From the NCBI RefSeq assembly GCF_001654835.1, contig NZ_LXEP01000015.1, positions 124,001 to 188,000 on the forward strand: DNA of 64,000 nt, in the 5' to 3' direction. Source of the DNA: Buttiauxella gaviniae ATCC 51604 (lineage in GTDB: Bacteria; Pseudomonadota; Gammaproteobacteria; Enterobacterales; Enterobacteriaceae). The notes beneath the pieces were generated by a model that was not told where the DNA came from, did not search any database, and was given only the letters and a program-made list of their open reading frames with translations. This document shows positions 18,360-33,876 of this stretch, piece by piece; the stretch's first letter is position 1; every line of letters begins with the position of its first letter. The position numbers and the translations under genes were made by a program.

Positions 18360-19313
<954 letters not shown>

Positions 19314-19350: not shown

Positions 19351-20358
19351 TTATGCAAACCCACATGACTCCCGCACCACTAGCGTTGGAGGCAGGATGA
19401 TACGTTTTGGGGGCTCATCGTTACCCTGAATACGGCTAAATAACAGCTCTCCAGCTTTGCGACCAATCTCTTTAGCGGCGACCGAAACTGTCGTCAGCGC
19501 CGGCTGAACCAAAGATGCCTCGGTAATATCGTCAAAACCTACAAGCGCGAAGTCGATGCCTGGCTGGCGTCCCATTTTACGCAGTGTCTGCATGACGCCG
19601 AGTGCCACAATATCCTGATAACAGACAGCGGCCGTGATTTCCGGATACTGCCGGAATAGCTCTTCAGCCACGCGGGCACCATCACTTTGACTCGCGAGCG
19701 ATGAAACCACCCATTCACTTTTCGGCTGGATACGGTGCTCTAGCAGTTTGCTGCTGTAGCCGCCGATACGCTGTGCACGGCTAATAGAATTTTCACTACC
19801 GCCGATAAATGCAATGTTGCGATGCCCAAGACGTAACAGATGCTGTGTCGCCAACTGAGTGCCCAAAAAGTTATCGGTGCCGACAAAATCGAAGTCCACA
19901 TCGTCCATGGGGCGCACCACCATAATCGCCGGAATATTACGGCGCTTCAGGGTTTCGAAAAATATCGATGGCGTTTCCCGTGCCGCGCACAACACCATGC
20001 CGCAGGCGTTATTGCGCATCAGAGAATCGACAAATTTTTGCTGGCGCTCGCCGGACTCTTCACTGTTTGCCAAAAATAGCAGCAGATCGTGACGTTCCAT
20101 TTCCTGGCTTAGCCCGGCAGTCATTTCACCGTAAAAAGGGTTGGTAATATCGTGCAGCAGCAGTCCGACCTGATTACTGGTGCGATTGCGTAAATTGGCT
20201 GCCGTTTGGTTATACACGTACCCCAGGTCATCCAGAGCTTTCAGCACACGGGTTCGAGTGGCGTCAGAAATTCTGCCTCGGTTACGCAACACCATTGAAA
20301 CGGTAGCAGTTGAAACTTCCGCCTGCTTTGCGACTTTGGCAAGGGTTACGGTGCTCAT
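19351..20358 (-). CDS. LacI-family transcriptional repressor of the PTS block
   Basis: 335 residues from the ATG at 20358, behind an AAGGAG site; the longer frame adds 20 residues before the helix-turn-helix and is rejected. The N-terminal DNA-binding domain is typical (TLAKVAKQAEVSTATVSMVLRN, recognition helix STATVSMVLR), with the hinge helix near YNQTAANLRN. A periplasmic-binding-protein-like effector domain follows. Among known members it most resembles MalI-type regulators, but the effector is unknown. It is divergent from the isomerase-PTS operon, and three copies of a palindrome resembling GGTTAATCGATTAACC lie in the shared spacer, so it probably represses both. An effector such as a phosphorylated sugar is an inference. 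Confidence 0.88.
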   Translation of the reverse strand: MSTVTLAKVAKQAEVSTATVSMVLRNRGRISDATRTRVLKALDDLGYVYNQTAANLRNRTSNQVGLLLHDITNPFYGEMTAGLSQEMERHDLLLFLANSEESGERQQKFVDSLMRNNACGMVLCAARETPSIFFETLKRRNIPAIMVVRPMDDVDFDFVGTDNFLGTQLATQHLLRLGHRNIAFIGGSENSISRAQRIGGYSSKLLEHRIQPKSEWVVSSLASQSDGARVAEELFRQYPEITAAVCYQDIVALGVMQTLRKMGRQPGIDFALVGFDDITEASLVQPALTTVSVAAKEIGRKAGELLFSRIQGNDEPPKRIILPPTLVVRESCGFA

Positions 20359-20390
20359 TAGCACTCCTTGGTATTTAGCAATTATTCTCA

Positions 20391-20406
20391 GATTAATCGA
20401 ATAACC
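20391..20406. promoter_or_regulatory. Candidate LacI-family operator O1
   Basis: GATTAATCGAATAACC matches 14 of 16 positions of the perfect palindrome at 26330-26345. It lies 33 bases before the repressor start codon and may mediate autoregulation or looping. Confidence 0.6.
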
Positions 20407-20425
20407 AAAAAAATGCATTTCTCCA

Positions 20426-20441
20426 TGTGAAAGCCATCACA
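20426..20441. promoter_or_regulatory. CRP-binding site
   Basis: TGTGAAAGCCATCACA has both perfect CRP half-sites (TGTGA, N6, TCACA). It lies in the divergent spacer between the LacI-family gene and the isomerase-PTS operon. A TTGCTA hexamer at 20466-20471 could be the -10 box of the PTS operon, which would put the CRP site near -42. That spacing is my inference. Confidence 0.82.
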
Positions 20442-20480
20442 GATAACTCAACTTCAGGCGACATCTTGCTAAAAGTGGCG

Positions 20481-20497
20481 GGTTAATCGCGTTTACC
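20481..20497. promoter_or_regulatory. Candidate LacI-family operator O2 (degenerate)
   Basis: GGTTAATCGCGTTTACC keeps the left half of the palindrome exactly and a loosened right half. It lies just downstream of the predicted start of the PTS-operon transcript. Confidence 0.45.
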
Positions 20498-20512
20498 ACC
20501 CTGTTCAAAGTC

Positions 20513-20528
20513 GGTTAATCGATTAATC
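20513..20528. promoter_or_regulatory. Candidate LacI-family operator O3
   Basis: GGTTAATCGATTAATC differs at one base from the perfect palindrome at 26330-26345. It lies 29 bases before the isomerase-like start codon, a position suited to repression. Confidence 0.75.
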
Positions 20529-20556
20529 TTAATTTATCAAGAACAGGGAGAAGAAT

Positions 20557-22302
20557 ATGCATCCGGCATCATACGATAAGTATCCCGAAGTCAGCGTTTC
20601 GGGATTTGACCATCACGCATGGCAGGGTTGGCCCGCAATCCAACAAGCTGTCAGTAAGCAACTTGCTCGCTCGGGAAAAACCGTGTTGGTTATTGACTGC
20701 TACCCAGGCGTTCAACTCGAAGAGATTCACGCGCAACTCATTGCACAACTCAACCCAACACTCACCATTAATGCCGAATCTGCGCGCTTAAGTGAACAAC
20801 ATCTGCATGATTTGCTGGCACGCAACCTGACGGATGACCGGGTGTTTGGCGTACTCTCATGCCATGAATTAAATGAGTTTCTTTGCCCGGAAAAACTCGC
20901 CGCCGCACAGCTAGAGGTCGCTGAAATAACCGAAGGATTGGTAGTGGTTTACGGCCCGGGAGCAGCACTTATTCATTCAGGGGATGTTCTGGTGTATGCG
21001 GATCTGGCGCGCTGGGAAATCCAGCAGCGTTTTCGCCGTGGTGAACTAGGCAACTGGGGCGCGAATAATACAGATGAAGATATTCTGCGCCGCTACAAAC
21101 GCGCGTTTTTCATTGAGTGGCGTGTGTTTGATCGTCATAAAACGCCGCTTCTGAAACGTGCAGATTTCCTACTCGATACCAATGCCGAACAACCAGCAAT
21201 GGTCAGCGGTGAAGCGCTACGCTACGCGCTGCAACAAACCACGCAACAACCGTTCCGCGTAGTGCCATTCTTCGACCCAGGAGTCTGGGGCGGTCAATGG
21301 ATGAAAGACAAATTCGATCTCGATCCCTCAAAACCAAATTACGCATGGTGTTTTGACTGTGTGCCCGAGGAGAACAGCCTGTTACTGCGTTTTGGTGATG
21401 TGCGGATCGAGATCCCCTCTCAGGATCTGGTATTGCTCTACCCTCGCCCGTTGCTTGGCGAGCGTGTGCATGCCCGTTTTGGTGCGGAATTCCCGATCCG
21501 CTTCGACTTCCTCGATACCATCGGCGGGCAGAATTTAAGCTTCCAGGTTCACCCGATTACCGAATACATCCAGCAGCATTTCGGCATGCATTACACCCAG
21601 GATGAGAGCTATTACATGCTGGAAGCAGAGCCTGGTGCGGAAGTGTATCTGGGGACCAAAACCGGTATTAATCCACAGGAAATGCTCGACGATCTTGCGA
21701 GTGCGCAGCGGGGTGAAAAAGCTTTTGATGATGAGAAATTCGTTAACCGTTTCCCGGCACGTAAACACGATCACTTCCTGATCCCGGCAGGTACCGTTCA
21801 CTGCTCTGGATCCGGTGCAATGGTGCTGGAGATCAGCGCAACGCCGTATATTTTCACTTTCAAATTGTGGGATTGGGGCCGCCTCGGTTTGGATGGTCTA
21901 CCACGTCCGGTACATCTGGAACATGGCGCGCAAGTGATTGACTGGCAACGTGATACGCAATGGGTCACCGAGCATCTGGTGAATCATTTCGAGCCTATCG
22001 CGGAAGGTGATGGCTGGCGCGAAGAACGTACGGGTCTACATGAACGTGAGTTTATCGAAACCCGCCGCCACTGGTTTACACAGCCAGTCACGCACCACAC
22101 TCATGGTGGCGTGAACGTACTGAATCTGGTGGAAGGCAGTGAAGCGCTGGTTGAAAGCCCGAGCGGCGCATTCGAACCCTTTGTGGTGCATTACGCCGAA
22201 ACCTTCATTGTTCCAGCGGCAGTCGGCGAATATCGCATTTCCCCATATGGCAGCGGTGTAGGTCAACAGCTCGCCACCATGAAAGCCTGGGTAAGAGGAT
22301 AA
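20557..22302 (+). CDS. Class I mannose-6-phosphate isomerase-like protein with an N-terminal extension
   Basis: 581 residues, well above the roughly 390 of E. coli ManA. The C-terminal part (from about residue 230) is a cupin phosphomannose-isomerase-like domain: FQVHP supplies Gln330 and His332, ESYYM supplies Glu350, and AGTVHC supplies His415, the usual Zn2+ ligand set. The first ~220 residues are an extra domain. Its KTVLVIDCYPG strand, DLARWEIQQRF segment and KRADFLLDTN end faintly recall uridine-kinase-like P-loop folds, but no Walker A motif is seen. That comparison is tentative. It starts an operon with a complete mannose-family PTS (EIIA begins 4 bases after the stop), so it probably isomerises the imported sugar phosphate. 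Confidence 0.8.
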   Translation: MHPASYDKYPEVSVSGFDHHAWQGWPAIQQAVSKQLARSGKTVLVIDCYPGVQLEEIHAQLIAQLNPTLTINAESARLSEQHLHDLLARNLTDDRVFGVLSCHELNEFLCPEKLAAAQLEVAEITEGLVVVYGPGAALIHSGDVLVYADLARWEIQQRFRRGELGNWGANNTDEDILRRYKRAFFIEWRVFDRHKTPLLKRADFLLDTNAEQPAMVSGEALRYALQQTTQQPFRVVPFFDPGVWGGQWMKDKFDLDPSKPNYAWCFDCVPEENSLLLRFGDVRIEIPSQDLVLLYPRPLLGERVHARFGAEFPIRFDFLDTIGGQNLSFQVHPITEYIQQHFGMHYTQDESYYMLEAEPGAEVYLGTKTGINPQEMLDDLASAQRGEKAFDDEKFVNRFPARKHDHFLIPAGTVHCSGSGAMVLEISATPYIFTFKLWDWGRLGLDGLPRPVHLEHGAQVIDWQRDTQWVTEHLVNHFEPIAEGDGWREERTGLHEREFIETRRHWFTQPVTHHTHGGVNVLNLVEGSEALVESPSGAFEPFVVHYAETFIVPAAVGEYRISPYGSGVGQQLATMKAWVRG

Positions 22303-22306
22303 CAAG

Positions 22307-22735
22307 ATGATTAACGTAATTCTGGCAACACATGGCTCGCTTGCCGAAGCACTACTGGCCGGTAGCAAAATGGTTTATGGCGAATTGCCGCATGTATTCC
22401 CGGTGATGCTCACTGAGAACAAGGGCATCAATAGTTTTGGCGATGAGTTTGCCGCGGTGCTGAAACAGGCCGCCAAAGATGCTGATGGTGTGCTGGTGTT
22501 GTGCGATTTGCAAAGCGGCACGCCGTGGAATATCGCCTGCCATCATGCGTTCGATCCGCAAACGCAGCCGCCAATGGCGGTGTTGGGAGGTGTTAATTTC
22601 CCGATGCTATTGCTAAGCGATGAAATAAAAGATCTGACCGATGTCGCCCAAGCAGCAGCGGTTTTACTGGAAGAGTCGCGCGACTCGCTGGTTCAGGCCC
22701 AACTGGCTGAAACCACACAATCTGATGATTTCTAA
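22307..22735 (+). CDS. PTS mannose-family EIIA component
   Basis: 142 residues. The N-terminal VILATHGSLAEALL motif carries the phosphorylation site His9, which takes the phosphate from HPr. The LCDLQSGTPWN segment is the other conserved EIIA-Man region. EIIA is a separate polypeptide here, unlike E. coli ManX, where EIIA and EIIB are fused. It lies 4 bases after the isomerase-like gene and 9 bases before EIIB. The substrate is not readable from this subunit. Confidence 0.92.
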   Translation: MINVILATHGSLAEALLAGSKMVYGELPHVFPVMLTENKGINSFGDEFAAVLKQAAKDADGVLVLCDLQSGTPWNIACHHAFDPQTQPPMAVLGGVNFPMLLLSDEIKDLTDVAQAAAVLLEESRDSLVQAQLAETTQSDDF

Positions 22736-22744
22736 GGGGCAGCG

Positions 22745-23239
22745 ATGAGTATTTCTTTTGTACGCATTGACGATCGGGTGATCCACGGCCAGTTGATCAC
22801 CCGCTGGGCAAAGGAGTTGCCGTGCGATGGGATCATCGCCATTGATGACGCTGTTGCCGCCGATCCGTTGTTGTCTTCGGTGATGAAAGGTGCGGTGCAG
22901 GACACCAAAGTCTGGTTGTTTGATACCGCCACCGCGATTGAAAAACTGCCGAAGATCATCGCCAGTGAGAAGCACTATTTCGTGATTGGTAAATCTCCGG
23001 TGACGCTTAAACGCATTGAAGAAGCCGGTATCAGCCTGCAAAACAGCAATAAGAAAATCAACGTTGGTCCGATGAGCGCACGAGCCACTACCACCACCAT
23101 TGGCCCGAATCAGTCTGTGAATCCCGAAGAGATAGCGGCGTTCGACTATCTCTCGCAGCACGGGCACCAGATTGAATTTCGACTGGTACCCGATGCCAGC
23201 AGTTACAGCTGGCAAGATGCTCGACAAAAACTCAAATAA
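22745..23239 (+). CDS. PTS mannose-family EIIB component
   Basis: 164 residues, a typical EIIB-Man. The RIDDRVIHGQLITRW motif holds the phosphorylated His14, which passes phosphate to the sugar during transport through EIIC/EIID. The ending resembles sorbose/mannose-class EIIB proteins. Its ribosome-binding site (GGGGCAGCG) sits in the short gap after EIIA. Confidence 0.92.
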   Translation: MSISFVRIDDRVIHGQLITRWAKELPCDGIIAIDDAVAADPLLSSVMKGAVQDTKVWLFDTATAIEKLPKIIASEKHYFVIGKSPVTLKRIEEAGISLQNSNKKINVGPMSARATTTTIGPNQSVNPEEIAAFDYLSQHGHQIEFRLVPDASSYSWQDARQKLK

Positions 23240-23250
23240 AGGAGTGCATT

Positions 23251-24048
23251 ATGGCTTTCGAAGCAGCTCTAATCGGCATTCTCTGTTACCTCGGTGCGCT
23301 TAGTAGCCCATGGCTACTGGGGTTGACTGGCGGCTGGTATCTGATTACCCGCCCACTGGTTTCAGGGATGCTGGTAGGTTTTATTCTCGGCGATGTGCAA
23401 ACCGGGATTATCATCGGCGTGGCGGTTCAGGCCGTGTATATCGCCATGGTAACCCCCGGTGGTTCTATGCCTGCGGATCTCAACTTTGTGGCCTTCCCGG
23501 CCATTGCACTGGGTATTCTTTCCAATAAAGGCCCTGAAGTGGCTGTAGCGTTAGCTGCCACTATAGGTATTGCGGGCACCGTGTTATTCAACGCCATGAT
23601 GGTGCTCAATTCTTGGTGGAACCACCGTGCGGATATCGCGCTGGAAAAGGGCGACGAGCGCGGCGTGTATCTCAACAGCGCTATCTGGCCGCAAGCCACC
23701 AACTTCCTGATGCGTTTTATTCCAACGTTTATCGCGGTCTATTTCGGCGCGCAGTATATCAACGCCTTTATGGACAGCCTGCCGCACATCGTTCTTTCCA
23801 CTATGAACGTGCTCGGCGGGATTCTGCCAGCTGTCGGTATCGCCATTCTGCTTAAACAAATCATCAAGAATTACAGCATGTTGATTTACTTCCTTGTGGG
23901 GTTTATCTGCATTGTTTTCCTGAAGCTAAATATGGTGGCGCTGGTGATTGTCGGCGCGTTGCTGGCACTGATTCACTACAACTACAAACCTGAGCCACAG
24001 GCTGAACGTACAGCCTCCACGCCCGCTGATGATGAGGATGAATTCTGA
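23251..24048 (+). CDS. PTS mannose-family EIIC permease
   Basis: 265 residues, mostly membrane segments. The GGWYLITRPLVSGMLVGFILGDVQTGIIIGVAVQ region (seen at about 23331-23430) and the acidic GGSMPADLNF segment are family hallmarks. It forms the sugar channel with EIID. It ends in a hydrophilic acidic tail (DDEDEF), and its TGA overlaps the EIID ATG by one base. Confidence 0.92.
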   Translation: MAFEAALIGILCYLGALSSPWLLGLTGGWYLITRPLVSGMLVGFILGDVQTGIIIGVAVQAVYIAMVTPGGSMPADLNFVAFPAIALGILSNKGPEVAVALAATIGIAGTVLFNAMMVLNSWWNHRADIALEKGDERGVYLNSAIWPQATNFLMRFIPTFIAVYFGAQYINAFMDSLPHIVLSTMNVLGGILPAVGIAILLKQIIKNYSMLIYFLVGFICIVFLKLNMVALVIVGALLALIHYNYKPEPQAERTASTPADDEDEF

Positions 24049-24863
24049 TGGAAGAACGTAAACTCACTCGCCAGGATCTGCGCCGTTGCTGGCGTAGTTG
24101 GATGATGTACAACCTCTCCTCAATGAGCTTTGAGCGCCTGGAGTCATTCGGCTTTTGCTTGAGTATGTTGCCGGTGGCGAAAAAGCTCTATCCCGATGAT
24201 GAACAACGCAAAGAGATGCTCAAACGCCACGCGTCGTTCTATAACACCGAGCCGCAGTTGGGTGCGATAGTCAACGGCATGGTGCTGGGTCTTGAGGAGA
24301 AGCGCGCCAACGGTGAGCCAATCGACGGCGAAACTATCAACACCCTGAAAGTGGGACTGATGGGGCCAGTGGCTGGGATTGGCGATTCAATGATTCCAGG
24401 GATGTTAATCCCGATTCTGCTCAGTATCGGGATGGCGCTGGCGGCGGGAGGGAATATTCTAGGGCCACTGTTTTACTGCGTGGCGTGGCTGGCGATTATT
24501 ATTCCTGGCTCGTGGTTCCTGTTCCTGAAAGGCTACCGCATGGGATCGACGTCCGTTGAGATGCTGGTGAGCAGCAAATCGACTCGCCTGCGTGAAGCGC
24601 TATCGTTGCTCGGCGTATTCGTGATGGGTGGCGTGGCGGCAAGTTACGTGAAGCTCGGCACCGGACTTGAATTTGTCACCAAAGACGGCGTGAATATTCA
24701 TGTGCAACAAATGTTGGACGGGATTTTCCCGAATTTATTGCCATTGTTGGTGGTGATTGGTACCTGGTATTTGATGGCAAAACGCGGCGTGTCACCGGTG
24801 AAAGCGATGTTGCTGTTATTAGTGTTAGCGGCAGTAGGCGTAGCAGTGGGGTTGTTCTCTTAA
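24048..24863 (+). CDS. PTS mannose-family EIID permease subunit
   Basis: 271 residues. The hallmark N-terminal KLTRQDLRRCWRSWM segment, the FYNTEPQLGAIVNGMVLGLEEKRANG motif and the GLMGPVAGIGDSM motif identify EIID, which pairs with EIIC. It is the last gene of the operon. A REP-type palindrome follows, and the next genes (cupin isomerases) converge from the other strand. Confidence 0.92.
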   Translation: MEERKLTRQDLRRCWRSWMMYNLSSMSFERLESFGFCLSMLPVAKKLYPDDEQRKEMLKRHASFYNTEPQLGAIVNGMVLGLEEKRANGEPIDGETINTLKVGLMGPVAGIGDSMIPGMLIPILLSIGMALAAGGNILGPLFYCVAWLAIIIPGSWFLFLKGYRMGSTSVEMLVSSKSTRLREALSLLGVFVMGGVAASYVKLGTGLEFVTKDGVNIHVQQMLDGIFPNLLPLLVVIGTWYLMAKRGVSPVKAMLLLLVLAAVGVAVGLFS

Positions 24864-24867
24864 AAAA

Positions 24868-24946
24868 ACGGTGGATGACGCTTACGCCTATCCACCGTAC
24901 AACACCAAGCCCGAAGGTCGGATTAGCGTGAGCGACATCCGACTCT
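24868..24946. repeat. REP/BIME-type palindromic repeat
   Basis: Two imperfect hairpins sit in the convergent spacer: GGTGGATGACGCTTACGCC with its TATCCACC partner, and GTCGGATTAGCGTGAGCGAC with ATCCGAC. Both have the GGATnnCGnnnnCGnnATCC pattern of enterobacterial REP units. They probably terminate or stabilise the two convergent transcripts. Confidence 0.8.
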
Positions 24947-24947
24947 T

Positions 24948-25730
24948 TTAAGGATGGAAACCCACCCACTTCTGGCTCATCATTCCTGGCTTTGAGATAA
25001 ATTGAAAACGCGCGGGATCATCAATAAATTGTTGATATAGCGGCTCATCGGTAATCCCAAATTCGGTATAGCTGCGTGGTGAAGTCACCTGCAAACGCCC
25101 CGGCATATAGCGACGGTTATGCTGCCAGGCAATATGCTCATCCTGCAATAGTGGATACCACGCCAGCCCTTTGTATGCCCGCACGGCTTCGTATTCAAAT
25201 CCATATTCCCGGTCGCACCAGGCACCAAATGTCAGCGGTTCATCAGGTGAAGCTGAGATCGTGGCATGCGCCCAACCCGGCGGCACCAGCACTTTTTCGC
25301 CAGGCCCGGCCACGATTGCAAAGCAGCGCCCCGGATCGTCGGAAACATATTCCTGCATGTAAATAATCGCTTTACCCTGCCAGATTTCATATAACTCTGG
25401 CGGCGACCAGCCACTGTGCGCACTAATCCGATGAATATGCCCCTGGCTGCGGACAGGTTCATCGCCCAACCGCCCGGAAGCGTAAGTCACCACGCCAAAC
25501 AGTAACATCCGTTTTTTAAGTTCTTCTCTGTCCTGCAATCGAGCAACATCCATGACGATCGCATAAACATCTTCCGGCCCCTGGCACAAAGGATCACGCA
25601 ATGAAGCACGGATCTGATCGAGTTTACGGATCTCCGGCACTGGCCCAATTACCTCTTCGCCGTAGCTAAAACCCATTGGCTGGTGATGGACCTGCATATC
25701 CAGTCCGAAATTGAGGAGCGGCTCAGCCAT
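24948..25730 (-). CDS. Cupin-type phosphoglucose-isomerase-like protein (second of a pair)
   Basis: 260 residues from the ATG at 25730, behind AGGAGG; a longer reading adds ten residues inside the upstream gene. The fold is the archaeal/cupin phosphoglucose isomerase family. The metal-binding set is complete: GHIH, the Glu in PPELYEIW, and a late His in PPGWAHATI. These enzymes interconvert glucose-6-phosphate and fructose-6-phosphate, and some act on mannose-6-phosphate. The start overlaps the end of the paralogous gene by 8 bases, so they are coupled. It lies in the PTS block under the shared operator, so it may act on the imported sugar phosphate. That is inference. Confidence 0.85.
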   Translation of the reverse strand: MAEPLLNFGLDMQVHHQPMGFSYGEEVIGPVPEIRKLDQIRASLRDPLCQGPEDVYAIVMDVARLQDREELKKRMLLFGVVTYASGRLGDEPVRSQGHIHRISAHSGWSPPELYEIWQGKAIIYMQEYVSDDPGRCFAIVAGPGEKVLVPPGWAHATISASPDEPLTFGAWCDREYGFEYEAVRAYKGLAWYPLLQDEHIAWQHNRRYMPGRLQVTSPRSYTEFGITDEPLYQQFIDDPARFQFISKPGMMSQKWVGFHP

Positions 25731-26286
25731 TTTGCACCTCCTTCGCCTGAATTTTGCCATCCTGCTCTATAACGCGTAGCGCAAAGCCCTTTGCCAACGA
25801 GGCATAGTCATGCCCGGCAATGGTTGGCCAGACTGCCAGTGCTGAGAGAATTTCCGTTCCGGTGTTGATTAGACGATGTGCTGTAAAACCTGGAATGATG
25901 TGGACAGAGCCAGCGAAGACTTGCTCCAGCCTCGTCTCACCCTGCTCAGTTTGCAGTAGCAACAGGCCACTTCCACGCAGGCCAAAGTAAACCTCACCTT
26001 GCTCGCGCCGTTGATGAAAATGCCCTCTGGTCATGTAAAATTCGTCGCCAACACGCCCCGGATTCAGATGCGTGGTTCCCACATAAAGCTCGCCGTCACC
26101 TTGCGCTGAACTCAGCATTTCAACCTGGTAAATTGGCGTTTCTGAAGAGATCGCCCGCCAGGCAGTTTGATCGTGAAATATGCCAGCCAGATCCCCGCTA
26201 TGCGTGACCTTAGTAATGATATTTTCAGCCGTGAAATGGCCGTTAGCGAACGCCACACCTGGTGGCATAAAGAAAGGAATAGTCAT
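25723..26286 (-). CDS. Cupin-type phosphoglucose-isomerase-like protein (first of a pair)
   Basis: 187 residues from the ATG at 26286, behind GGAGAAACAAC; the upstream in-frame extension is rejected. It is the typical length of archaeal-type cupin phosphoglucose isomerases. The ligand set is GHFH (residues near the middle), the Glu in GEVYF and the His in GFTAHRL. It is a paralogue of the downstream gene (residues diverge widely but the motif order is the same), and the two overlap by 8 bases. A perfect operator palindrome lies 44 bases upstream, which ties the pair to the LacI-family regulator. Confidence 0.88.
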   Translation of the reverse strand: MTIPFFMPPGVAFANGHFTAENIITKVTHSGDLAGIFHDQTAWRAISSETPIYQVEMLSSAQGDGELYVGTTHLNPGRVGDEFYMTRGHFHQRREQGEVYFGLRGSGLLLLQTEQGETRLEQVFAGSVHIIPGFTAHRLINTGTEILSALAVWPTIAGHDYASLAKGFALRVIEQDGKIQAKEVQNG

Positions 26287-26329: not shown

Positions 26330-26345
26330 GGTTAATCGATTAACC
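26330..26345. promoter_or_regulatory. LacI-family operator upstream of the cupin pair
   Basis: GGTTAATCGATTAACC is a perfect 16-bp palindrome, the best copy of the motif that recurs at 20391, 20481 and 20513. It sits between rihC and the cupin gene, where it would overlap the promoter of the cupin operon (a TATGCT hexamer lies just downstream on the minus strand). Confidence 0.82.
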
Positions 26346-26388: not shown

Positions 26389-27306
26389 TCAGGGTGCCAA
26401 CGCCAGGACTTGCGCCACCCATGCCTGAAAACCATCGACATCCAAATCCAGCGCAACCTGAGCATTGGGTTGCCGTTCAAAGCGCCCTTCGATATCCACA
26501 ACAGTCGTGCCAGAAGTGAATTCTCCGTGGATTTCAACAGCCACAAAACAAGGCTTCACAACGAACAACTCAGGCTTCACCAACCAGGCAATGGCGCATA
26601 AATCATGCATCCGCAAACCTGTCACCATGCTGCCGCTGCGGTAATGACTAAATAGCGCGTGTAGCATTTTTCCGGTTTGGTTAAGAGATGGGAGCTGCTC
26701 TAAATATGCAGGGCTTAACATCGCTTTATTGGTGACATCCAGGCCGCACATCACAATTTCCAGCCCACTTTCGAACACTCGTGCTGCAGCTTCTGGATCA
26801 ATGGCGATATTAAACTCGGCGTTTGGTGTGAAGTTGCCGCGCCCCGCCGATCCGCCCATGATCACCAGCCGTTTGATCTTCGCTTTGCATTGCGGGTATT
26901 GCGTGAGCAACAGCGCAATATTGGTCAACGGCCCGATGGCCACCAGCGTGATAGCTTCAGGGCTTGCGTTCAGGCATTCATAAATAGCCTGAAAAGCGGG
27001 TTTATCCAGCGGCTGGCGTTGGTGGTCGACAAATGCATAACCTTCCATGCCGGACTCGCCGTGCACGTAGGCCGCATCGCGCAATTTACGCACCAGCGGC
27101 GTGGCTGCCCCTTGAGCAACAGGAATATCTTTGTGCCAGAAGTGCATCAGTTGCAGCGCGTTGCGGGTCGTTTTCTCGACGCTGACATTGCCTGCGACCG
27201 TGGTCAGCAACTTCAAATCAAGCTGCGGGGCAAAAAGTGCAGCGGCAATAGCTACGGCGTCGTCGATGCCAGGGTCGGTATCGAGAATGATTGGAGTTCT
27301 ACTCAT
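26389..27306 (-). CDS. rihC: Ribonucleoside hydrolase RihC
   Basis: 305 residues, matching E. coli RihC (304) closely, including [33 protein letters not shown] and the C-terminal TTVVDIEGR. RihC splits purine and pyrimidine ribonucleosides into base and ribose. The N-terminal Asp cluster DTDPGIDD is the Ca2+ site, and the [13 protein letters not shown] segment is also conserved. In E. coli it sits between ispH and dapB; here it still lies between them, with a sugar block inserted on each side. It is divergent from the GntR-family gene. Confidence 0.95.
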
Positions 27307-27406
27307 ACATTGCTCTCTTATCTTTTAAGTACATACGGTGCGATTACGGCGCGATTAGCTTACTATGTAGCTCATTTCCATGTTTAGTCACGACCGAGAA
27401 AGTGTA

Positions 27407-28138
27407 ATGAAAGTCCCACAGACAAATATTTCTGAATCTGTCACCCAGCATCTTGCACGCCGTATCATGCATGGCGATCTCGCGCCGGGGCTTTCTTTAC
27501 CAGGTGAAAACGAACTGGCCGTGGAGTATGAAGTCTCCCGCACTTCAGTACGCAACGCCCTCCAGGTACTTGCCGCAAAAGGGCTTATCTCCATTCAGGC
27601 CAAAAAACGCAGCACGGTAAATAATCGTGAACAGTGGAGTCTGTTGGATATTGATGTTCTGGGGTGGCTTGCCGAAGGTGAAGTTGACCTGAAACTGGTT
27701 GAACAACTGATTGTGACACGCCTGATTTTCGAGCCAAATGTGGCAACACTCGCAGCATTAAACGCCAACGGACATGATTTGGCAGCGATGGAAGACGCAC
27801 TCCAGTTGATGCGTAAAGGTCAGGTTGAAGCGCAAAGAGCCTTATTTGAAGAAGGTGATCTGGCATTTCACCATGCGCTGCTGCGTGCTACTCATAATCC
27901 TTTCTTACTGGCTCTCGGTAATGCGCTTTCCGCAGCCATGGAACTGTCTTTCAAACAGACGATTGAGAAAGATGTTCGCCAGACCAAAGCCGCCGTTGAT
28001 GATCACTTTCAACTGTTTGATGCTATTCGCCTTAAACAAGTCGAGACTGCCCGCCAGCAAATGCGCACCATCTTGTTGAATGCGGCCAAAAAACGCATCT
28101 GGCAAGATCGTCCGGAAATGTTCGACCACATTATTTGA
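27407..28138 (+). CDS. dgoR: GntR/FCD-family regulator, DgoR-like
   Basis: 243 residues from the ATG at 27407. An N-terminal winged helix-turn-helix (SVTQHLARRIMHGDL, PGENELAVEYEVSRTSVRNALQ) is followed by an FCD effector domain whose metal-site residues are suggested by DLAFHHALL, HNPFLL and DDHFQLFDAI. This is the FadR-subfamily layout of E. coli DgoR, repressor of galactonate use. Its neighbours, a galactonokinase and KDPGal aldolase, support the name. Repeats TTGTATTAC in front of the downstream kinase gene are its likely operator. The effector might be D-galactonate or a related sugar acid. Confidence 0.82.
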   Translation: MKVPQTNISESVTQHLARRIMHGDLAPGLSLPGENELAVEYEVSRTSVRNALQVLAAKGLISIQAKKRSTVNNREQWSLLDIDVLGWLAEGEVDLKLVEQLIVTRLIFEPNVATLAALNANGHDLAAMEDALQLMRKGQVEAQRALFEEGDLAFHHALLRATHNPFLLALGNALSAAMELSFKQTIEKDVRQTKAAVDDHFQLFDAIRLKQVETARQQMRTILLNAAKKRIWQDRPEMFDHII

Positions 28139-28200
28139 TCCTCTCCTGATGTAATTTCGATCTCTCTCACAGATTGTGGGTGTTTTTTGCTCTAGCATTC

Positions 28201-28233
28201 TTGTATTACAAGATTACATGGTTTGTATTACTT
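28201..28233. promoter_or_regulatory. Candidate GntR-family operator, tandem TTGTATTAC sites
   Basis: TTGTATTACAA (28201-28211) is a perfect inverted repeat of the FadR-subfamily type (TNGTNNNACNA). A second, partial copy, TTGTATTACTT, begins at 28223, 22 bases further on and so on roughly the same face of the helix. They end 4 bases before the kinase start codon. Confidence 0.72.
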
Positions 28234-28236
28234 GAA

Positions 28237-29139
28237 ATGAAAAACAACTGGATCGCCATCGACTGGGGCACGACTAATTTCCGGGCATTTTTGATGCAGG
28301 AAAGTGTACAAGTTGCCCAAATCAATCAAGCCTGCGGGTTGTTGTCCATTGAACAAGGGCAATTTGCCAGCACGCTGCAAAACTTACTGCAACCGTGGCT
28401 TGAGCAGCATGGAGCATTGCCCGTCGTGATGGCGGGGATGGTCGGCTCACAGCAAGGCTGGCGGGAAGTACCCTACGCTCCGCTGCCTTGCGACATCGAC
28501 AATTTAATCACTCGGACACTGGCTTTCACGACACCATGGGGCAGTCCAGCGTGGATTGTGCCTGGCGTACAGGGGATGAGCCAATACCACCAGCCCGACG
28601 TCATGCGTGGCGAAGAAGTCCAATTACTGGGGCTCGCCGCATTACATCCTGCAAATGAACATCTGGTCTTGCTGCCAGGCACTCACAGCAAACACGCGAC
28701 GATCGTGAACGGGGAAATCACCGCCTTCTCAACATTTATGAGCGGTGAACTCTTCTCGCTTTTAAGCCAGCACTCAATCCTTGGGCGCGCACTACCAGAA
28801 CAGAAAGAAAGTGAAGAGGCTTTCTTGCTTGGCGTGGCAACAGCCCTGCGTGATGCGCCATTCAGTCACCTGATCTTTTCAGCGCGAACACTCCGTCTGG
28901 CCTTAGAAATCCAGGAATCCCACGTTCACAGCTATCTCTCAGGCCTGGTGATTGGCTATGAACTTAAAGCACTTCCCGCAGGCCAACACGCCTGGGTTGT
29001 GGGCAACCCGGCGCTGATAGCTCGATATCAACTTGCAGCAAACCAGATGGATCTCAATCTGCTATCGGCTGATGGCGACGCCTGCTTCGTGACGGGCCTC
29101 AGTCACCTCTTTACTCGACTACAAGGAATGCAAAAATGA
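28237..29139 (+). CDS. dgoK: 2-dehydro-3-deoxygalactonokinase (DgoK-like)
   Basis: 300 residues from the ATG at 28237; the longer frame would begin with a hydrophobic stretch encoded by the operator and is rejected. The N-terminal IAIDWGTTNFRAF is the phosphate-binding strand of the DgoK family, and LLPGTHSKHATIVNGEI and STFMSGELFSLL are conserved segments. It phosphorylates 2-keto-3-deoxygalactonate at C6. Its stop overlaps the aldolase start (ATGA), as in the dgo operon of E. coli. The ribosome-binding site is weak because the operator occupies that space. Confidence 0.88.
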   Translation: MKNNWIAIDWGTTNFRAFLMQESVQVAQINQACGLLSIEQGQFASTLQNLLQPWLEQHGALPVVMAGMVGSQQGWREVPYAPLPCDIDNLITRTLAFTTPWGSPAWIVPGVQGMSQYHQPDVMRGEEVQLLGLAALHPANEHLVLLPGTHSKHATIVNGEITAFSTFMSGELFSLLSQHSILGRALPEQKESEEAFLLGVATALRDAPFSHLIFSARTLRLALEIQESHVHSYLSGLVIGYELKALPAGQHAWVVGNPALIARYQLAANQMDLNLLSADGDACFVTGLSHLFTRLQGMQK

Positions 29140-29777
29140 GCCCGGAACAATTTATTGCCCGCTGGCAACAAGAGCCTCTACCGTTGATTGCCATTTTGCG
29201 CGGTATAACGCCCGAGCACGCTGTTGAAGCCGCAGAAATTCTGTTGGAGTGCGGTTTCCATTACCTGGAAGTCCCCCTTAATAGCCCATCTGCACTGAAA
29301 TCTATTCACCTGATGAGAGACACCGTAGGCAACCGTGGCTATGTGGGTGCGGGCACGGTGTTAAATGTGGAACAAGTTGATAGCGTTGCTGAATGCGGCG
29401 GGCAATTGATCATCTCCCCAAACTGTAATCCCGATGTGATTCGCCATTCGGTGAAACGCGGCTTGATAAGTCTCCCTGGCGTCATGACACCCAGCGAGGC
29501 TTTTAGCGCCATAGATGCCGGGGCGAGCGCGCTGAAATTATTCCCGGCCGAGCATATCACCCCAGTAATAACCAAAGCGTTCCGCGCAGTCGTCCCACGT
29601 GAAGTGGCCTGTTTACCCGTCGGTGGTATCCAACCGGATGCCGCGCAAATGCGTAGCTATATTCAGGCAGGAGCCGATGGTTTTGGCCTGGGTGGCGGGT
29701 TGTATCAGGCAGGTATGAGCATGGCTGTATTACGTGAACGGGCGCAGGCATATCAGCAAGCCTGGCTTGAGCAATAG
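29136..29777 (+). CDS. dgoA: 2-dehydro-3-deoxy-6-phosphogalactonate aldolase (DgoA-like)
   Basis: 213 residues of the KDPG/KDPGal class I aldolase family. The Schiff-base Lys134 is in SALKLFPAE. The Glu in FHYLEVPLNSP and the GAGTVL motif complete the active site. It splits KDPGal into pyruvate and glyceraldehyde-3-phosphate. It is slightly longer than E. coli DgoA (205). The coupled overlap with the kinase gene and the DgoR-type regulator support a galactonate-type role, although a KDPG isomer is possible. A 60-base gap follows before the transporter. Confidence 0.86.
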   Translation: MSPEQFIARWQQEPLPLIAILRGITPEHAVEAAEILLECGFHYLEVPLNSPSALKSIHLMRDTVGNRGYVGAGTVLNVEQVDSVAECGGQLIISPNCNPDVIRHSVKRGLISLPGVMTPSEAFSAIDAGASALKLFPAEHITPVITKAFRAVVPREVACLPVGGIQPDAAQMRSYIQAGADGFGLGGGLYQAGMSMAVLRERAQAYQQAWLEQ

Positions 29778-29837
29778 AACATTAGATTCCCTACACAATA
29801 AAAAACCTCTTACCCTGAATTTTCTGGAGACAGAACA

Positions 29838-31244
29838 ATGAGCAAAACTCTGGACAACAAACCCACAGCTTCGACAGCGGAGTCAAAGGTTTATAGCAAG
29901 ATAACGCGACGCCTAATCCCGTTTTTGATCTTATGTTATTTCTTCGCCTATCTGGACCGCGTTAACGTCGGGTTCGCTAAACTACACATGCAAGATGCAC
30001 TGAACTTCAGTGACACCGTGTATGGGTTGGGTGCGGGCATCTTCTTTATCGGTTATTTCCTGTTTGAGATGCCGAGCAACTTGCTGATGCAGCGTTTCGG
30101 GCCGCGTTTCTGGATTGCCCGCATTATGGCAACCTGGGCGGTGCTTTCGGCTGGCATGATGTTTGTCACCACCCCGACACAGTTTTACATAGTGCGTTTT
30201 TTACTCGGTGTGGCAGAGGCCGGCTTCTTCCCTGGAATCGTGTTCTATCTCACGCTGTGGTTCCCGTCGTGGCGCTCTGCTCGCACGCTCGGTCTGTTTA
30301 TTCTGGTTACGCCGCTTTCGACCATTATCGGCAGCCCGCTTTCGGGCTTGATCCTAAAGATGTTTGAAGGAGTTGGCCACCTGCACAACTGGCAGTGGCT
30401 ATTCCTGGTTGAAGCAATTCCCTCTTTCCTGCTCGCTTTTGTGGTGCTGCGTTATCTCGATAACGATGTGAAGTCAGCGAAGTGGCTGAGCGATGCCGAA
30501 AAACAGGTCGTCATTAACGATCTGGCAAAAGATGCCGCCAATCGTGCACGTGCCAACCAAGGCAAAGTGGATAGCAGCGTGAAAGGAATGTTGAAAAACG
30601 GCTACGTCTGGCTGCTGGCGGTGGTGTTCTTTAGCTTCAACATCGGTTACTACGGCATCAACTTCTGGCTACCGTCGATCATCAAATCCTCAGGCGTCAG
30701 CGACGATTTCCATATCGGCCTGCTCGCGGCACTGCCATATGTCTTCGGTGCCTGTTTTATGGTGTGGAACAGTCGCCATTCTGACCTGAAACAAGAACGT
30801 CGTTGGCACATCGCTATTCCCGCCATGATTGGCTGCGTGGGCCTGGCATTGAGTGCGTATTGCAGCGGATCCACCTTCTGGATGATGGCGTGGATTTGCG
30901 TGGCGATGTCCGGCACCCTGGCATTGATTCCAACCTACATCAGCCTGCCTGGCGCCCTGCTTTCCGGCACGGCCGCAGCCGCAGGTATCGCCTTCGTCAA
31001 CTCCATCGGCAACCTGGCAGGTTTCTTTGGCCCGACAGTATTGGGCTGGCTGAAAGACACCACCGGGCGCACCGACACGGGCTTATATATCCTCGCGGCC
31101 TTCTTGCTGCTGTGTGCGCCACTCATTCTCGCCCTGCCAGCACGGCTGGCGAATCCGAAGAAAGTTATCGCTGTACCCGAACAGAGCGGTGAGCAGCTTG
31201 ATGCTGCCCAACATATTAACGCGACTATTAATCGCAACGTTTAG
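29838..31244 (+). CDS. MFS anion:cation symporter, sugar-acid uptake
   Basis: 468 residues with about 12 membrane segments. The N-terminal RRLIPFLILCYFFAYLDRVNVGFA and the MPSNLLMQRFGPR motif place it in the ACS family (DgoT, GudP, phthalate and rhamnonate permeases). It is longer than E. coli DgoT (about 430) and looks closer to the RhmT/phthalate type, so the exact substrate is uncertain. Operon position after the aldolase and before a sugar-acid dehydratase argues for an aldonate. TGGAGACAGAACA precedes the start codon. Confidence 0.85.
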   Translation: MSKTLDNKPTASTAESKVYSKITRRLIPFLILCYFFAYLDRVNVGFAKLHMQDALNFSDTVYGLGAGIFFIGYFLFEMPSNLLMQRFGPRFWIARIMATWAVLSAGMMFVTTPTQFYIVRFLLGVAEAGFFPGIVFYLTLWFPSWRSARTLGLFILVTPLSTIIGSPLSGLILKMFEGVGHLHNWQWLFLVEAIPSFLLAFVVLRYLDNDVKSAKWLSDAEKQVVINDLAKDAANRARANQGKVDSSVKGMLKNGYVWLLAVVFFSFNIGYYGINFWLPSIIKSSGVSDDFHIGLLAALPYVFGACFMVWNSRHSDLKQERRWHIAIPAMIGCVGLALSAYCSGSTFWMMAWICVAMSGTLALIPTYISLPGALLSGTAAAAGIAFVNSIGNLAGFFGPTVLGWLKDTTGRTDTGLYILAAFLLLCAPLILALPARLANPKKVIAVPEQSGEQLDAAQHINATINRNV

Positions 31245-31258
31245 AAGAGATAGAAACT

Positions 31259-32971
31259 ATGAGTGGATGTGGCGGTGGCGGATGTGCCAGTTGTGGCACG
31301 CATTTCAACCCGATCCTCGAAGGTGACGATGGCGCACTGAAACGTGCGCTGTACAAATCCATGGGTCATACCGATGAACAACTGCGTAAGCCTGTAATCG
31401 CAGTAGTGAACAGCTACACCAATGCGACGGCGGGACATGCAAACCTGAATGAACTGACCGCCAAAGTGCTCGAAGGCATTGATGAAGCCGGTGGTGTCGG
31501 AATGGTGTTTGGCACTATCGCCCCTTGCGACGGGATAGCTGAAGGGCATCTGGGGATGCGTTACATCCTCGCTGCCCGTGAAGTGATCACCGCGTCGATT
31601 GAAGTGATGATGCGCGCCCACCGTTTTGACGGCATGGTGCTACTCGGCTCGTGCGACAAAATCGTTCCGGCGATGCTAATGGCCGCTGCACGCCTGGATA
31701 TCCCAGCGATTATGGTTAACGGCGGCCCAATGTACCCGGCTGAATATAAAGGTAAACACTGGGACGGCAATATCGTCACCGAAGCCATTGGCTGGAAAAT
31801 GCGCGGTGAAATCAGCGAAGAAGAGTTCGCCCACATTGAAAATATAGCCGAACCCGGCCCTGGCTCCTGCACCATGTATGGCACCGCGAACACCATGTGC
31901 TGTATCGGAGAAGTGCTGGGAATGAGTTTACCGGGTAGCAGTACGCTGCCTGCTATCTCAAAAGAGCGCCGCGAATGTGCTGTGGAAACCGGTCGTCAGG
32001 CCGTCAAACTGGTATTGGATGGCGTTAATGCACGCCAGATCATTACCGCTGAATCCATCCGCAATGCGATGATTTATTTGCTGGCTACGGGTGGTTCGAC
32101 CAACGCAATTCTGCATTTACAGGCAATCTATTATGAAGCAGAGCTGGGCCATTTGCCGCTGTCTGCTTTTGATGAGTTAAGCCATCAGGTGCCATTGGTT
32201 GCCTCGCTTTATCCGGCCTCTGAACACGACATGATCGACTTCTGGGAAGCCGGTGGTGTGCAAGCGGTCGAATATGAAATCAGCAAATTGATGGATCTGA
32301 ATGCGCTGACCGTGGCTGGAAAAACCAAAGCTGAGTTGCTGACCGAAGCAACCCGGAGTTGCCGCCCGGAAGTCATCCATACCTTAGCCATTCCCGTGCG
32401 TAATGAGGCCGGTGTTGCTGTGCTGCACGGCAATCTGTCGCCACTAGGATGCGTGGTGAAACCTGCTGCCGTACCGGAAAACCTGATGGTGTTCCGTGGC
32501 CCTGCGGTGGTGTTTAACAGTGAGCAGGAATCTGTGGAAGCCATCATGTCCGGCCAAATCCAGCCGGGTAGCGTGCTGGTGCTGCGTTATGAAGGGCCAA
32601 AAGGCGGGCCGGGAATGCCAGAGATGTACAAGCCCATGAAATCGCTTGAAGGTATGGGGCTTTCTGATACTTGTGCGTTGATTACTGACGGGCGTTTCTC
32701 AGGCTCCAACCGTGGTCTGTTCGTCGGCCATATTTCACCGGAAGCGGTGGATGGCGGCGAATTGGGTCTGGTAGAAGATGGCGATGAAATCTCTATAAAT
32801 ATCCCAACCCGCACGCTGACATTGCACGTTTCAGAAACCGAACTGGCAACCCGTCGCGAGCACTGGAAACCGGTAGATAAAGAAGTGCCACGCGGCTTCC
32901 TGCGTTTGTATCGCCGTTGGGCACTGCCAGCCGCACAGGGTGCCGTGCTGGCTGACCGGGAGGAAGACTGA
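31259..32971 (+). CDS. IlvD/Edd-family sugar-acid dehydratase
   Basis: 570 residues. Three Cys positions of the family's Fe-S cluster are conserved: Cys90 (IAPCDG), Cys132 (LGSCDK) and Cys204 (GSCTMYG). The catalytic region TDGRFSGSNRG is also present. IlvD/Edd enzymes dehydrate dihydroxy acids or sugar acids (xylonate, arabonate, galactonate, 6-phosphogluconate) to 2-keto-3-deoxy acids. Here it probably replaces the enolase-superfamily DgoD. The N-terminus is unusually Cys- and Gly-rich (MSGCGGGGCASCG). Its stop overlaps the next gene (TGATG). Confidence 0.87.
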   Translation: MSGCGGGGCASCGTHFNPILEGDDGALKRALYKSMGHTDEQLRKPVIAVVNSYTNATAGHANLNELTAKVLEGIDEAGGVGMVFGTIAPCDGIAEGHLGMRYILAAREVITASIEVMMRAHRFDGMVLLGSCDKIVPAMLMAAARLDIPAIMVNGGPMYPAEYKGKHWDGNIVTEAIGWKMRGEISEEEFAHIENIAEPGPGSCTMYGTANTMCCIGEVLGMSLPGSSTLPAISKERRECAVETGRQAVKLVLDGVNARQIITAESIRNAMIYLLATGGSTNAILHLQAIYYEAELGHLPLSAFDELSHQVPLVASLYPASEHDMIDFWEAGGVQAVEYEISKLMDLNALTVAGKTKAELLTEATRSCRPEVIHTLAIPVRNEAGVAVLHGNLSPLGCVVKPAAVPENLMVFRGPAVVFNSEQESVEAIMSGQIQPGSVLVLRYEGPKGGPGMPEMYKPMKSLEGMGLSDTCALITDGRFSGSNRGLFVGHISPEAVDGGELGLVEDGDEISINIPTRTLTLHVSETELATRREHWKPVDKEVPRGFLRLYRRWALPAAQGAVLADREED

Positions 32972-33876
32972 TGACTCAGCGCTATAGCGCGACGAATATC
33001 GTCGGGGTAAATCCGATTGTTGCGATGCCTTTTACCTCTAGCGGCGAAATTGATGAAGTGAGTTTTGTGCGCCTGTTGGAGCATCTCGCGACGACTGGCG
33101 TGCAAGGCACCACGCTTTTTGGTATCGCCAGCGAGTTTCCCAAACTGGAAGACAGCGAGCGTAACCGGCTTGCACAAATGTTTGTCAGCACACTGGCAGG
33201 TAGCCCGCTTTATCGGGCGATGTCGGTGACCGATCACAGCACGGAAGTGGCCGTGAAACGCGCCCGATACTGCGCCTCTCTGGGTGTGGATGCGCTGATG
33301 CTGCTGCCACCGTTTTTCCTCAGCCCTAATCCACAAGCGATTCAGGCACATATTTTTGCCGTGCTGGAAGCGGTGGATATTCCGGTGATGGTGCAGTACG
33401 CGCCGGGTGAAACCGGGTTGCCGATTACGCCTGAACAACTAGCAGCAGTCGCAGACCGCTACCCGCATGCGGTATTCAAAATCGAGTGTAATCCACCAGT
33501 GGATTATACAAGGGAGTTTCTCGTTAAAGCCCCACAGGCCAGCGTACTCAATGGATATGCCGGTTTGTACATGTTGCAAATGCTGACAGCAGGCGGAAAA
33601 GGCGTGATGCCGGGTTGTTCTTTTGCTGAAGTGTATGTGCGGATTTATCAGCACTGGCAGCGGGGCGAAACAGCACAGGCAGAGGCACTGCATCAGGCGC
33701 TGTTACCCTATATCCAACGCTGGATGACGCATTGCGAATACATCATTCAGGTTGAGAAAACGATTTTGATGAAGCGTGGGATTATCGCAACGGACTATTG
33801 CCGCAAGCCTGGCTGGCAACTGTCCAGTGAAGACTATCAGATAATTGATCGCTTCCTGACTGACTTCCAACTGTGA
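32971..33876 (+). CDS. DapA-family (DHDPS/NAL-like) aldolase
   Basis: 301 residues, a TIM-barrel class I lyase. Lys170 in FKIE is the Schiff-base residue, and Tyr143 in VQYAPGETG is the conserved catalytic tyrosine. The second strand reads TTLFGIASEF where DapA has GTTGE, so it is a non-DapA subgroup, such as 2-keto-3-deoxy-sugar-acid aldolases (YagE/YjhH type). It would split a keto-deoxy acid into pyruvate and an aldehyde without phosphorylation, alongside the kinase-DgoA branch. It ends the operon. Confidence 0.85.
   Translation: MTQRYSATNIVGVNPIVAMPFTSSGEIDEVSFVRLLEHLATTGVQGTTLFGIASEFPKLEDSERNRLAQMFVSTLAGSPLYRAMSVTDHSTEVAVKRARYCASLGVDALMLLPPFFLSPNPQAIQAHIFAVLEAVDIPVMVQYAPGETGLPITPEQLAAVADRYPHAVFKIECNPPVDYTREFLVKAPQASVLNGYAGLYMLQMLTAGGKGVMPGCSFAEVYVRIYQHWQRGETAQAEALHQALLPYIQRWMTHCEYIIQVEKTILMKRGIIATDYCRKPGWQLSSEDYQIIDRFLTDFQL

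Follow-up and report, generated by a model that had tools for sequence, protein, structure and literature searches.

Organisation of the locus

The sequence analysed here is a 64-kb window of Buttiauxella gaviniae ATCC 51604 (NZ_LXEP01000015.1), in which positions 19351-26286 hold a sugar phosphotransferase system (PTS) locus with three isomerase-like genes. A LacI-family gene (lacI) on the reverse strand is divergent from a forward operon encoding a phosphomannose isomerase (PMI)-like protein and the separate subunits EIIA, EIIB, EIIC and EIID of a mannose-family PTS. Two reverse-strand genes for cupins of the phosphoglucose isomerase (PGI) family, the long cup270 and the short cup200, are convergent with this operon (Table 1). 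All of these genes had been named in an earlier reading of the DNA without database searches (hereafter the sequence-only reading); each is an open reading frame at the place given there and passes its Pfam cut-off, the 581-residue PMI-like protein being recognised through the solved structure 1qwr instead. The starts of lacI, cup270 and cup200 were reset by orthologue lengths, and 20358, 25730 and 26286, respectively, are the more likely positions.

One palindrome had been said to recur in both promoter regions, and the motif count agrees. At up to three mismatches, GGTTAATCGATTAACC has three sites in the window (20391, 20513 and 26330) against 0.17 expected, a number reached in 0 of 100 shuffles, and the three copies mark both promoter regions of the locus. 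Because the start of lacI has been moved to 20358, the copy at 20391 lies upstream of that gene. The LacI protein combines a helix-turn-helix with a sugar-binding domain (PF00356/PF00532), and the palindromes stand at its presumed targets. It scores 310.5 bits against the NCBIfam MalI-subfamily model NF007449 (cut-off 310); there is no mal gene among those at 19351-26286. In PMC4052901, ManR appears as one of the LacI-family regulators assigned to mannose and mannosides, and the regulator of this locus may already be named in that set.

Table 1. Features of the regulon, with positions in the window and the evidence for each
Feature	Position	Strand	Evidence
LacI-family repressor	19351..20358	-	PF00356, PF00532 above Pfam cut-off; start moved from 20418
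Palindrome copy 1, 2 mismatches, upstream of lacI	20391..20406		Motif count
Palindrome copy 2, 1 mismatch, upstream of PMI-like gene, 122 bp from copy 1	20513..20528		Motif count
PMI-like protein, 581 aa: ~225-aa N-terminal domain, then cupin PMI half	20557..22302	+	Profile, predicted fold
Mannose-family PTS EIIA	22307..22735	+	PF03610 (EIIA-man) 58.3 bits, cut-off 21.4
Mannose-family PTS EIIB	22745..23239	+	PF03830 (PTSIIB_sorb) 129.8 bits, cut-off 27
Mannose-family PTS EIIC	23251..24048	+	PF03609 (EII-Sor) 219.6 bits, cut-off 26.3
Mannose-family PTS EIID	24048..24863	+	PF03613 (EIID-AGA) 304.6 bits, cut-off 25
cup270, long cupin, PGI family (name from uncorrected frame)	24948..25730	-	PF06560 (GPI) 62.0 bits, cut-off 20.7
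cup200, short PGI-family cupin, 8-base overlap with cup270	25723..26286	-	PF06560 81.6 bits, cut-off 20.7
Palindrome copy 3, perfect, upstream of cup200-cup270	26330..26345		Motif count

The PMI-like protein

At E 0.001 the 581-residue protein is matched by no model of Pfam or NCBIfam, PF20511 (PMI_typeI_cat) included, and for want of that match we file it as PMI-like and not as a type I PMI. It matches the Bacillus subtilis mannose-6-phosphate isomerase 1qwr (phmmer E 4.6e-13; profile E 1.1e-14). Its predicted model has a predicted local distance difference test (pLDDT) score of 92.2, the top 17 Foldseek matches are PMIs, and the template modelling (TM) score normalised to 1qwr as target is 0.83, with the PMI fold in the C-terminal half. 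Moreover, H332, E350 and H415 are kept in 37/37 aligned rows and fall on the H, E and H of 1qwr that we take to be its metal ligands. The closest relative in the best 80 of at least 585 loci is a Buttiauxella agrestis protein (93% identical).

Profile searches with the N-terminal domain gave nothing below E 0.27 against PDB sequences and, for the four members tried, nothing below E 0.02 against Pfam. When BFVD was searched with the whole model, the entry at rank 31, amid many cupin- and helicase-like ones, was a viral uridine kinase (E 2.4e-3, target TM 0.49), and a Walker A pattern is missing from the first 120 residues in 37/37 rows. That the domain is a degenerate P-loop kinase is a guess. 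New here are a PMI-like family that neither Pfam nor NCBIfam names and that has an additional domain at its N terminus, and the recurrent link of this family to cupins.

The cupins

By sequence alone, cup200 is assigned through its match to the Thermococcus litoralis PGI (E 2.4e-39). The predicted model of cup270 (pLDDT 92.3) matches the PGI of Pyrococcus furiosus (PfPGI); at E 2e-12 to 3e-10, each of its top 12 Foldseek matches is either a cupin PGI or an engineered relative. The metal ligands of PfPGI are His88, His90, Glu97 and His136, as given in PMC6627849. With positions paired to PfPGI by hand, this H-H-E-H set is found in 14/14 rows of cup270 and 16/16 rows of cup200.

Loci in which a single cupin of either kind accompanies the PMI-like gene do exist. 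There is cup270 without a nearby cup200 in L134, L136 and L137, and cup200 alone in L027, L052 and L069, with no further PF06560 match in any of these six genomes; cup200 is also without a nearby cup270 in L047, L050, L064, L074 and L076. Since one cupin of either kind occurs, the arrangement fits two cupins with the same or overlapping jobs, and the proposal in the sequence-only reading of up to three isomerase steps is unlikely.

Two Bacillota genomes (L138 and L139) carry a cup270 relative (30-31% identical) as their sole PF06560 match, and they are also the 2 of 16 genomes searched from which the PF00342 PGI is missing. On these two grounds PGI activity is suggested for this branch; its extension to cup270 is unproven and the completeness of both genomes is not given. 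In both (L138:2815-5150 and L139:4140-6334) the cupin adjoins a phosphohexomutase gene, identified by Pfam in L138 and by eye in L139, and a GAPDH-like neighbour was also recognised by eye. A different cluster is seen in two enteric loci (L142:5027-8615 and L143:4857-8593), where a PTS EIIBC gene accompanies a cupin 25-26% identical to cup270 and genes for HxlB (6-phospho-3-hexuloisomerase) and HxlA (3-hexulose-6-phosphate synthase), both above the NCBIfam cut-off in L143. An SgrR-looking gene (by eye) stands opposite this cluster, which looks like cleavage of a PTS sugar to ribulose-5-phosphate and formaldehyde.

Conservation in Gammaproteobacteria

Relatives of the PMI-like gene were taken as the best 80 of at least 585 confirmed loci, that is, the closest ones, of which 34 are gammaproteobacterial and 46 are not. 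Among the 34, mannose-type EIIC and EIID genes are present in 29; both cupins are found in 23, cup200 only in 2 and neither in 9. Within 10 kb of the PMI-like gene, 34/34 have a lacI relative (40% identity or more), and the palindromes are kept at corresponding positions in most of these relatives. Two palindromes (up to three mismatches) stand beside lacI in 32/34 loci, spaced by 121-123 bp (n = 20), 130-132 bp (n = 10), 112 bp (n = 1) or 73 bp (n = 1). As these spacings mostly form two classes about one helical turn apart, they suggest that LacI could loop between the paired sites. Near cup200 a palindrome was found by script in 22/25 loci, or 23 with L032, where it lies on the other strand, was overlooked by the script and was read by eye; L027 and L034 are without one on that side.

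A further sample comprised 295 genomes of the family, with that of B. gaviniae among them; cup270 is matched in 36 at E 0.001, and in 32 of these, including one with a fragment, the match is at least as good as E 1e-40. Thirty of the 32 loci were retrieved, with cup200 present in 30/30 and EIID within the short locus in 28/30. In the remaining two, EIID is farther away, separated by an insert that holds genes for a cellobiose-type EIIC and a GH1-type protein. This insert, between EIID and cup270 (L140:6058-8773 and L141:9826-12541), has the arrangement seen in L017, for which alone its families were tested, and is perhaps a beta-mannoside branch. Other cupins account for the four weaker cup270 matches and for the second copies that some genomes have; of three such places inspected, two lie in a different PTS cluster. 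A distant blastn search with 3,944 bases of the operon gave no match in 5,426 complete Escherichia coli genomes; therefore, the title of L014, a record named Escherichia coli that carries the regulon, is probably wrong. L031, a metagenome-assembled genome titled Pluralibacter, is probably a mis-binned contig: its PMI clusters with Aeromonas in the tree, and its gene order is that of Aeromonas.

Conservation across phyla

A search for conserved co-occurrence of all three isomerase-like genes, which the sequence-only reading had proposed, found them together also in Bacteroidota, Chlorobiota, Bacillota and Spirochaetota. Among the 46 non-gammaproteobacterial loci, cup200 is present in 16 and cup270 too in 9 of these. 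In 20 hand-picked genomes cup270 occurs in 8, each time as a single copy beside the PMI-like gene. Phylum samples, with the centre genome counted in each, gave cup270 at E 1e-40 in 5/395 Bacteroidota, 4/398 Bacillota (2 weak) and 1/247 Spirochaetota. The five Bacteroidota and two strong Bacillota matches adjoin a PMI-like gene, that of L137 being just 36% identical. The set is thus rare outside the enterics and strongly linked where present. In a tree of 87 PMI proteins made by a quick method, in which L137 forms a very long branch, possession of both cupins is scattered and takes 12 changes, at least 7 of them forced by starred branches; this scatter implies that the trio has been repeatedly gained or lost.

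Clues to the sugar

The most telling clues lie in relatives of the locus. In the enteric loci L015 and L017, genes for an MngA-like PTS and an MngB-like GH38 protein start beside extra palindromes (the L017 GH38 frame runs past the end of the locus and its start alone was read). In L023, also enteric, both lie inside the operon, between the palindromes and the PMI-like gene, the MngA-like frame being short (314 aa). Moreover, L029-L031 carry a LacI relative (69-70%) and palindromes (two to three mismatches) ahead of the PMI-like gene, a PTS EIIBC gene and a GH38 gene.

Outside Gammaproteobacteria, a ROK kinase is found in 32 of the 46 loci, a mannose-family PTS in 3, both in 0 and neither in 11, and a related sugar porter occurs in 10; the single ROK match in the gammaproteobacterial set is that of L019 (24%). 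Because kinase and PTS are alternative routes to a hexose 6-phosphate, the shared step would be the PMI-like enzyme downstream. For the ROK relative of L038, the solved relatives are glucokinases and N-acetylmannosamine kinases, which leaves mannose specificity unsettled. Glycosidases nearby include GH38 in 16 and GH2 in 6 of the 46 loci (22 with either), and one GH2 neighbour in L080 has mannosidase immunoglobulin-like (Ig) domains. Of 325 listed neighbour proteins 148 were scanned, and 13 match PF01074; GntR, UTRA and DeoR regulators are as frequent or more so. In the 20 hand-picked genomes, GH38 lies within 10 kb of the PMI-like gene in 7; from the 74 PF01074 matches that their 101 Mb contain, one would expect 0.26. 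The computed probability of 1e-9 for at least 7 such loci was not used, as it presumes an even spread of GH38 and mixes two detection routes.

Routes of the MngA/MngB type would converge on mannose 6-phosphate (Man-6-P). The surroundings of the genes in relatives speak for entry at Man-6-P, and the earlier expectation of an unusual aldose, ketose or disaccharide phosphate is not supported.

Neighbouring genes and related genes in the genome

The locus is flanked by a dapB-like gene (18360-19244, named by eye) and by rihC (26389-27306, above the NCBIfam cut-off). The adjoining operon at 27380-33876 encodes a GntR/FCD regulator, a DGOK-family kinase, a 2-keto-3-deoxy-6-phosphogluconate-type aldolase, a major facilitator superfamily porter, an IlvD/Edd dehydratase and a dihydrodipicolinate synthase-family protein; with its IlvD/Edd-type dehydratase it looks like a galactonate-like sugar-acid operon. 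That kinase and aldolase are lacking had been claimed correctly for 19351-26286; this next operon has both, and the motif search of the window found no palindrome copy in it. Scans for promoters and terminators yielded 4 and 6 sites, below the 7.8 and 7.9 of shuffled sequence, and none is claimed.

Elsewhere in the genome, one other gene matches PF20511, the sole match of the genome search, and a PF00342 PGI is present. A separate EIID looks like ManZ with adjoining subunits, and a third mannose-family PTS lies beside aga-like genes (names by eye). Given these separate mannose-PTS, PMI and PGI genes, the regulon is a second set. The sequence-only reading called it self-contained, a fair term in this genome; in some relatives GH38, GH1 and additional PTS genes belong to it.

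Proposed function

We put at about two in three the probability that this is a LacI-controlled mannose regulon. The sugar entering through EIIABCD, to give the 6-phosphate, would be free mannose or one close to it such as glucose; the PMI-like enzyme would convert Man-6-P to fructose 6-phosphate (Fru-6-P), and the two cupins would interconvert Fru-6-P and glucose 6-phosphate (Glc-6-P). LacI would bind the palindromes at both promoters, might form a loop between the two that are 122 bp apart, and would release when mannose or a mannose phosphate is present. Several observations weigh against this proposal. The pathway looks redundant beside the PF20511 PMI, ManXYZ-like PTS and PF00342 PGI of the same genome, which has no GH38 match, so that use of mannosides by this strain is uncertain. 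In L027 the LacI relative is merely 45% identical and no site was found by script. Outside Gammaproteobacteria, 30/46 PMI loci are without both cupins, and 24/46 have no GH38 or GH2 within 10 kb by the seeds used; these neighbour counts rest on seeds taken from the same loci. The MngA-like and MngB-like proteins tested fall below the NCBIfam equivalog cut-offs, which is why the labels are kept at "-like". Also on this side are a second GH2 in L080 with an exo-glucosaminidase Ig domain, GH31, GH27 and GH51-type genes in L136, and an FGGY kinase in L135.

The PMI-like enzyme could act on Man-6-P while one or both cupins are not PGIs, serving for example as a Man-6-P or Glc-6-P anomerase or as a direct Man-6-P/Glc-6-P 2-epimerase. 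In favour of this, cup270 shares 17-21% identity with solved cupin PGIs, has a longer stretch between H and E and is extended at its C terminus; cup200 has Trp at the position of PfPGI Tyr152 (by alignment, numbered by hand); and a PF00342 PGI is carried by all 13 genomes searched that have a full cup270 at the PMI locus, and by the B. gaviniae genome. Set against PGI-type metal ligands and fold, and two genomes that may depend on a cup270 relative as sole PGI, we regard this as unlikely. Similarly unlikely, in our view, is a three-enzyme module of the PMI-like protein and both cupins, in which the cupins would go beyond ordinary PGI activity (direct or anomer-specific Man-6-P/Glc-6-P interconversion) and intermediates would be channelled in a complex held by a nucleotide-kinase-like N-terminal domain.

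A rare hexose such as allose, altrose or talose, the kind of sugar favoured in the sequence-only reading, could instead be imported and walked or epimerised to Fru-6-P by the three isomerases. Mannose-type genes already present elsewhere in the genome and the persistence of the isomerase trio would suit this, and the distant cup270 relative with PTS, HxlB and HxlA genes in other enterics indicates that the cupin group can serve other sugars. Yet no 3-epimerase, aldolase or kinase family was matched by Pfam among the genes at 19351-26286, the kinase and aldolase next door come without the palindrome, mannoside-type partners stand beside the same palindromes, and one cupin of either kind is enough in some loci, so that we hold a rare hexose to be quite improbable. 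A fructosamine-type (gfr) operon or a plain manXYZ-manA copy would account for the mannose-family PTS and little speaks for either: no SIS-type family was matched by Pfam among the genes at 19351-26286, and a ManXYZ-like PTS and a PMI are encoded separately in the genome. To our knowledge neither operon has cupins or this PMI, and we think both very improbable.

An operator-linked, PTS-containing set with three isomerase-like proteins, as first read from the DNA, is supported, and no described pathway with this gene set was found in open-licence PubMed Central papers. With the mannose proposal, a function open to testing can be assigned to a large family of PMI-like proteins (at least 585 related loci) without a Pfam or NCBIfam name at E 0.001, and likewise to the cupin PGIs that bacteria encode in sugar operons. 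It further predicts that many Enterobacterales have a regulon dedicated to mannose, operator included. Should the cupins be plain PGIs, this would be ordinary mannose chemistry by an unusual enzyme group.

Comparison with known systems

The mannose pathway of Escherichia coli consists of manXYZ and manA, a mannose-family EII and a type I PMI. The present locus shares with it the mannose-family EII, a type I PMI-like enzyme and the predicted chemistry. It differs in that EIIA and EIIB are separate genes, a LacI gene is adjacent, the 581-residue PMI-like protein is divergent and has an extra domain, and two cupins are added; moreover, it stands beside a ManXYZ-like PTS and a PF20511 PMI. Type I PMIs (1qwr and 1zx5) resemble the PMI-like protein in its C-terminal half by profile and fold, whereas the latter lacks a PF20511 match at E 0.001 and has in addition an N-terminal domain of ~225 residues without a named family. 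In the archaeal cupin-type PGIs of Pyrococcus and Thermococcus (PF06560), the family match, the H-H-E-H ligands and the fold are the same; here, by contrast, the cupins are in a sugar operon, often paired, and in genomes having a PF00342 PGI. Lastly, the E. coli mngAB genes serve 2-O-alpha-mannosyl-D-glycerate. Uptake is mediated by MngA according to PMC8490865, and mngA is controlled by MngR according to the title of a work cited there. No MngA- or MngB-like gene is present within 19351-26286, whereas relatives of both genes join the regulon in L015, L017 and L023, where they would yield Man-6-P.

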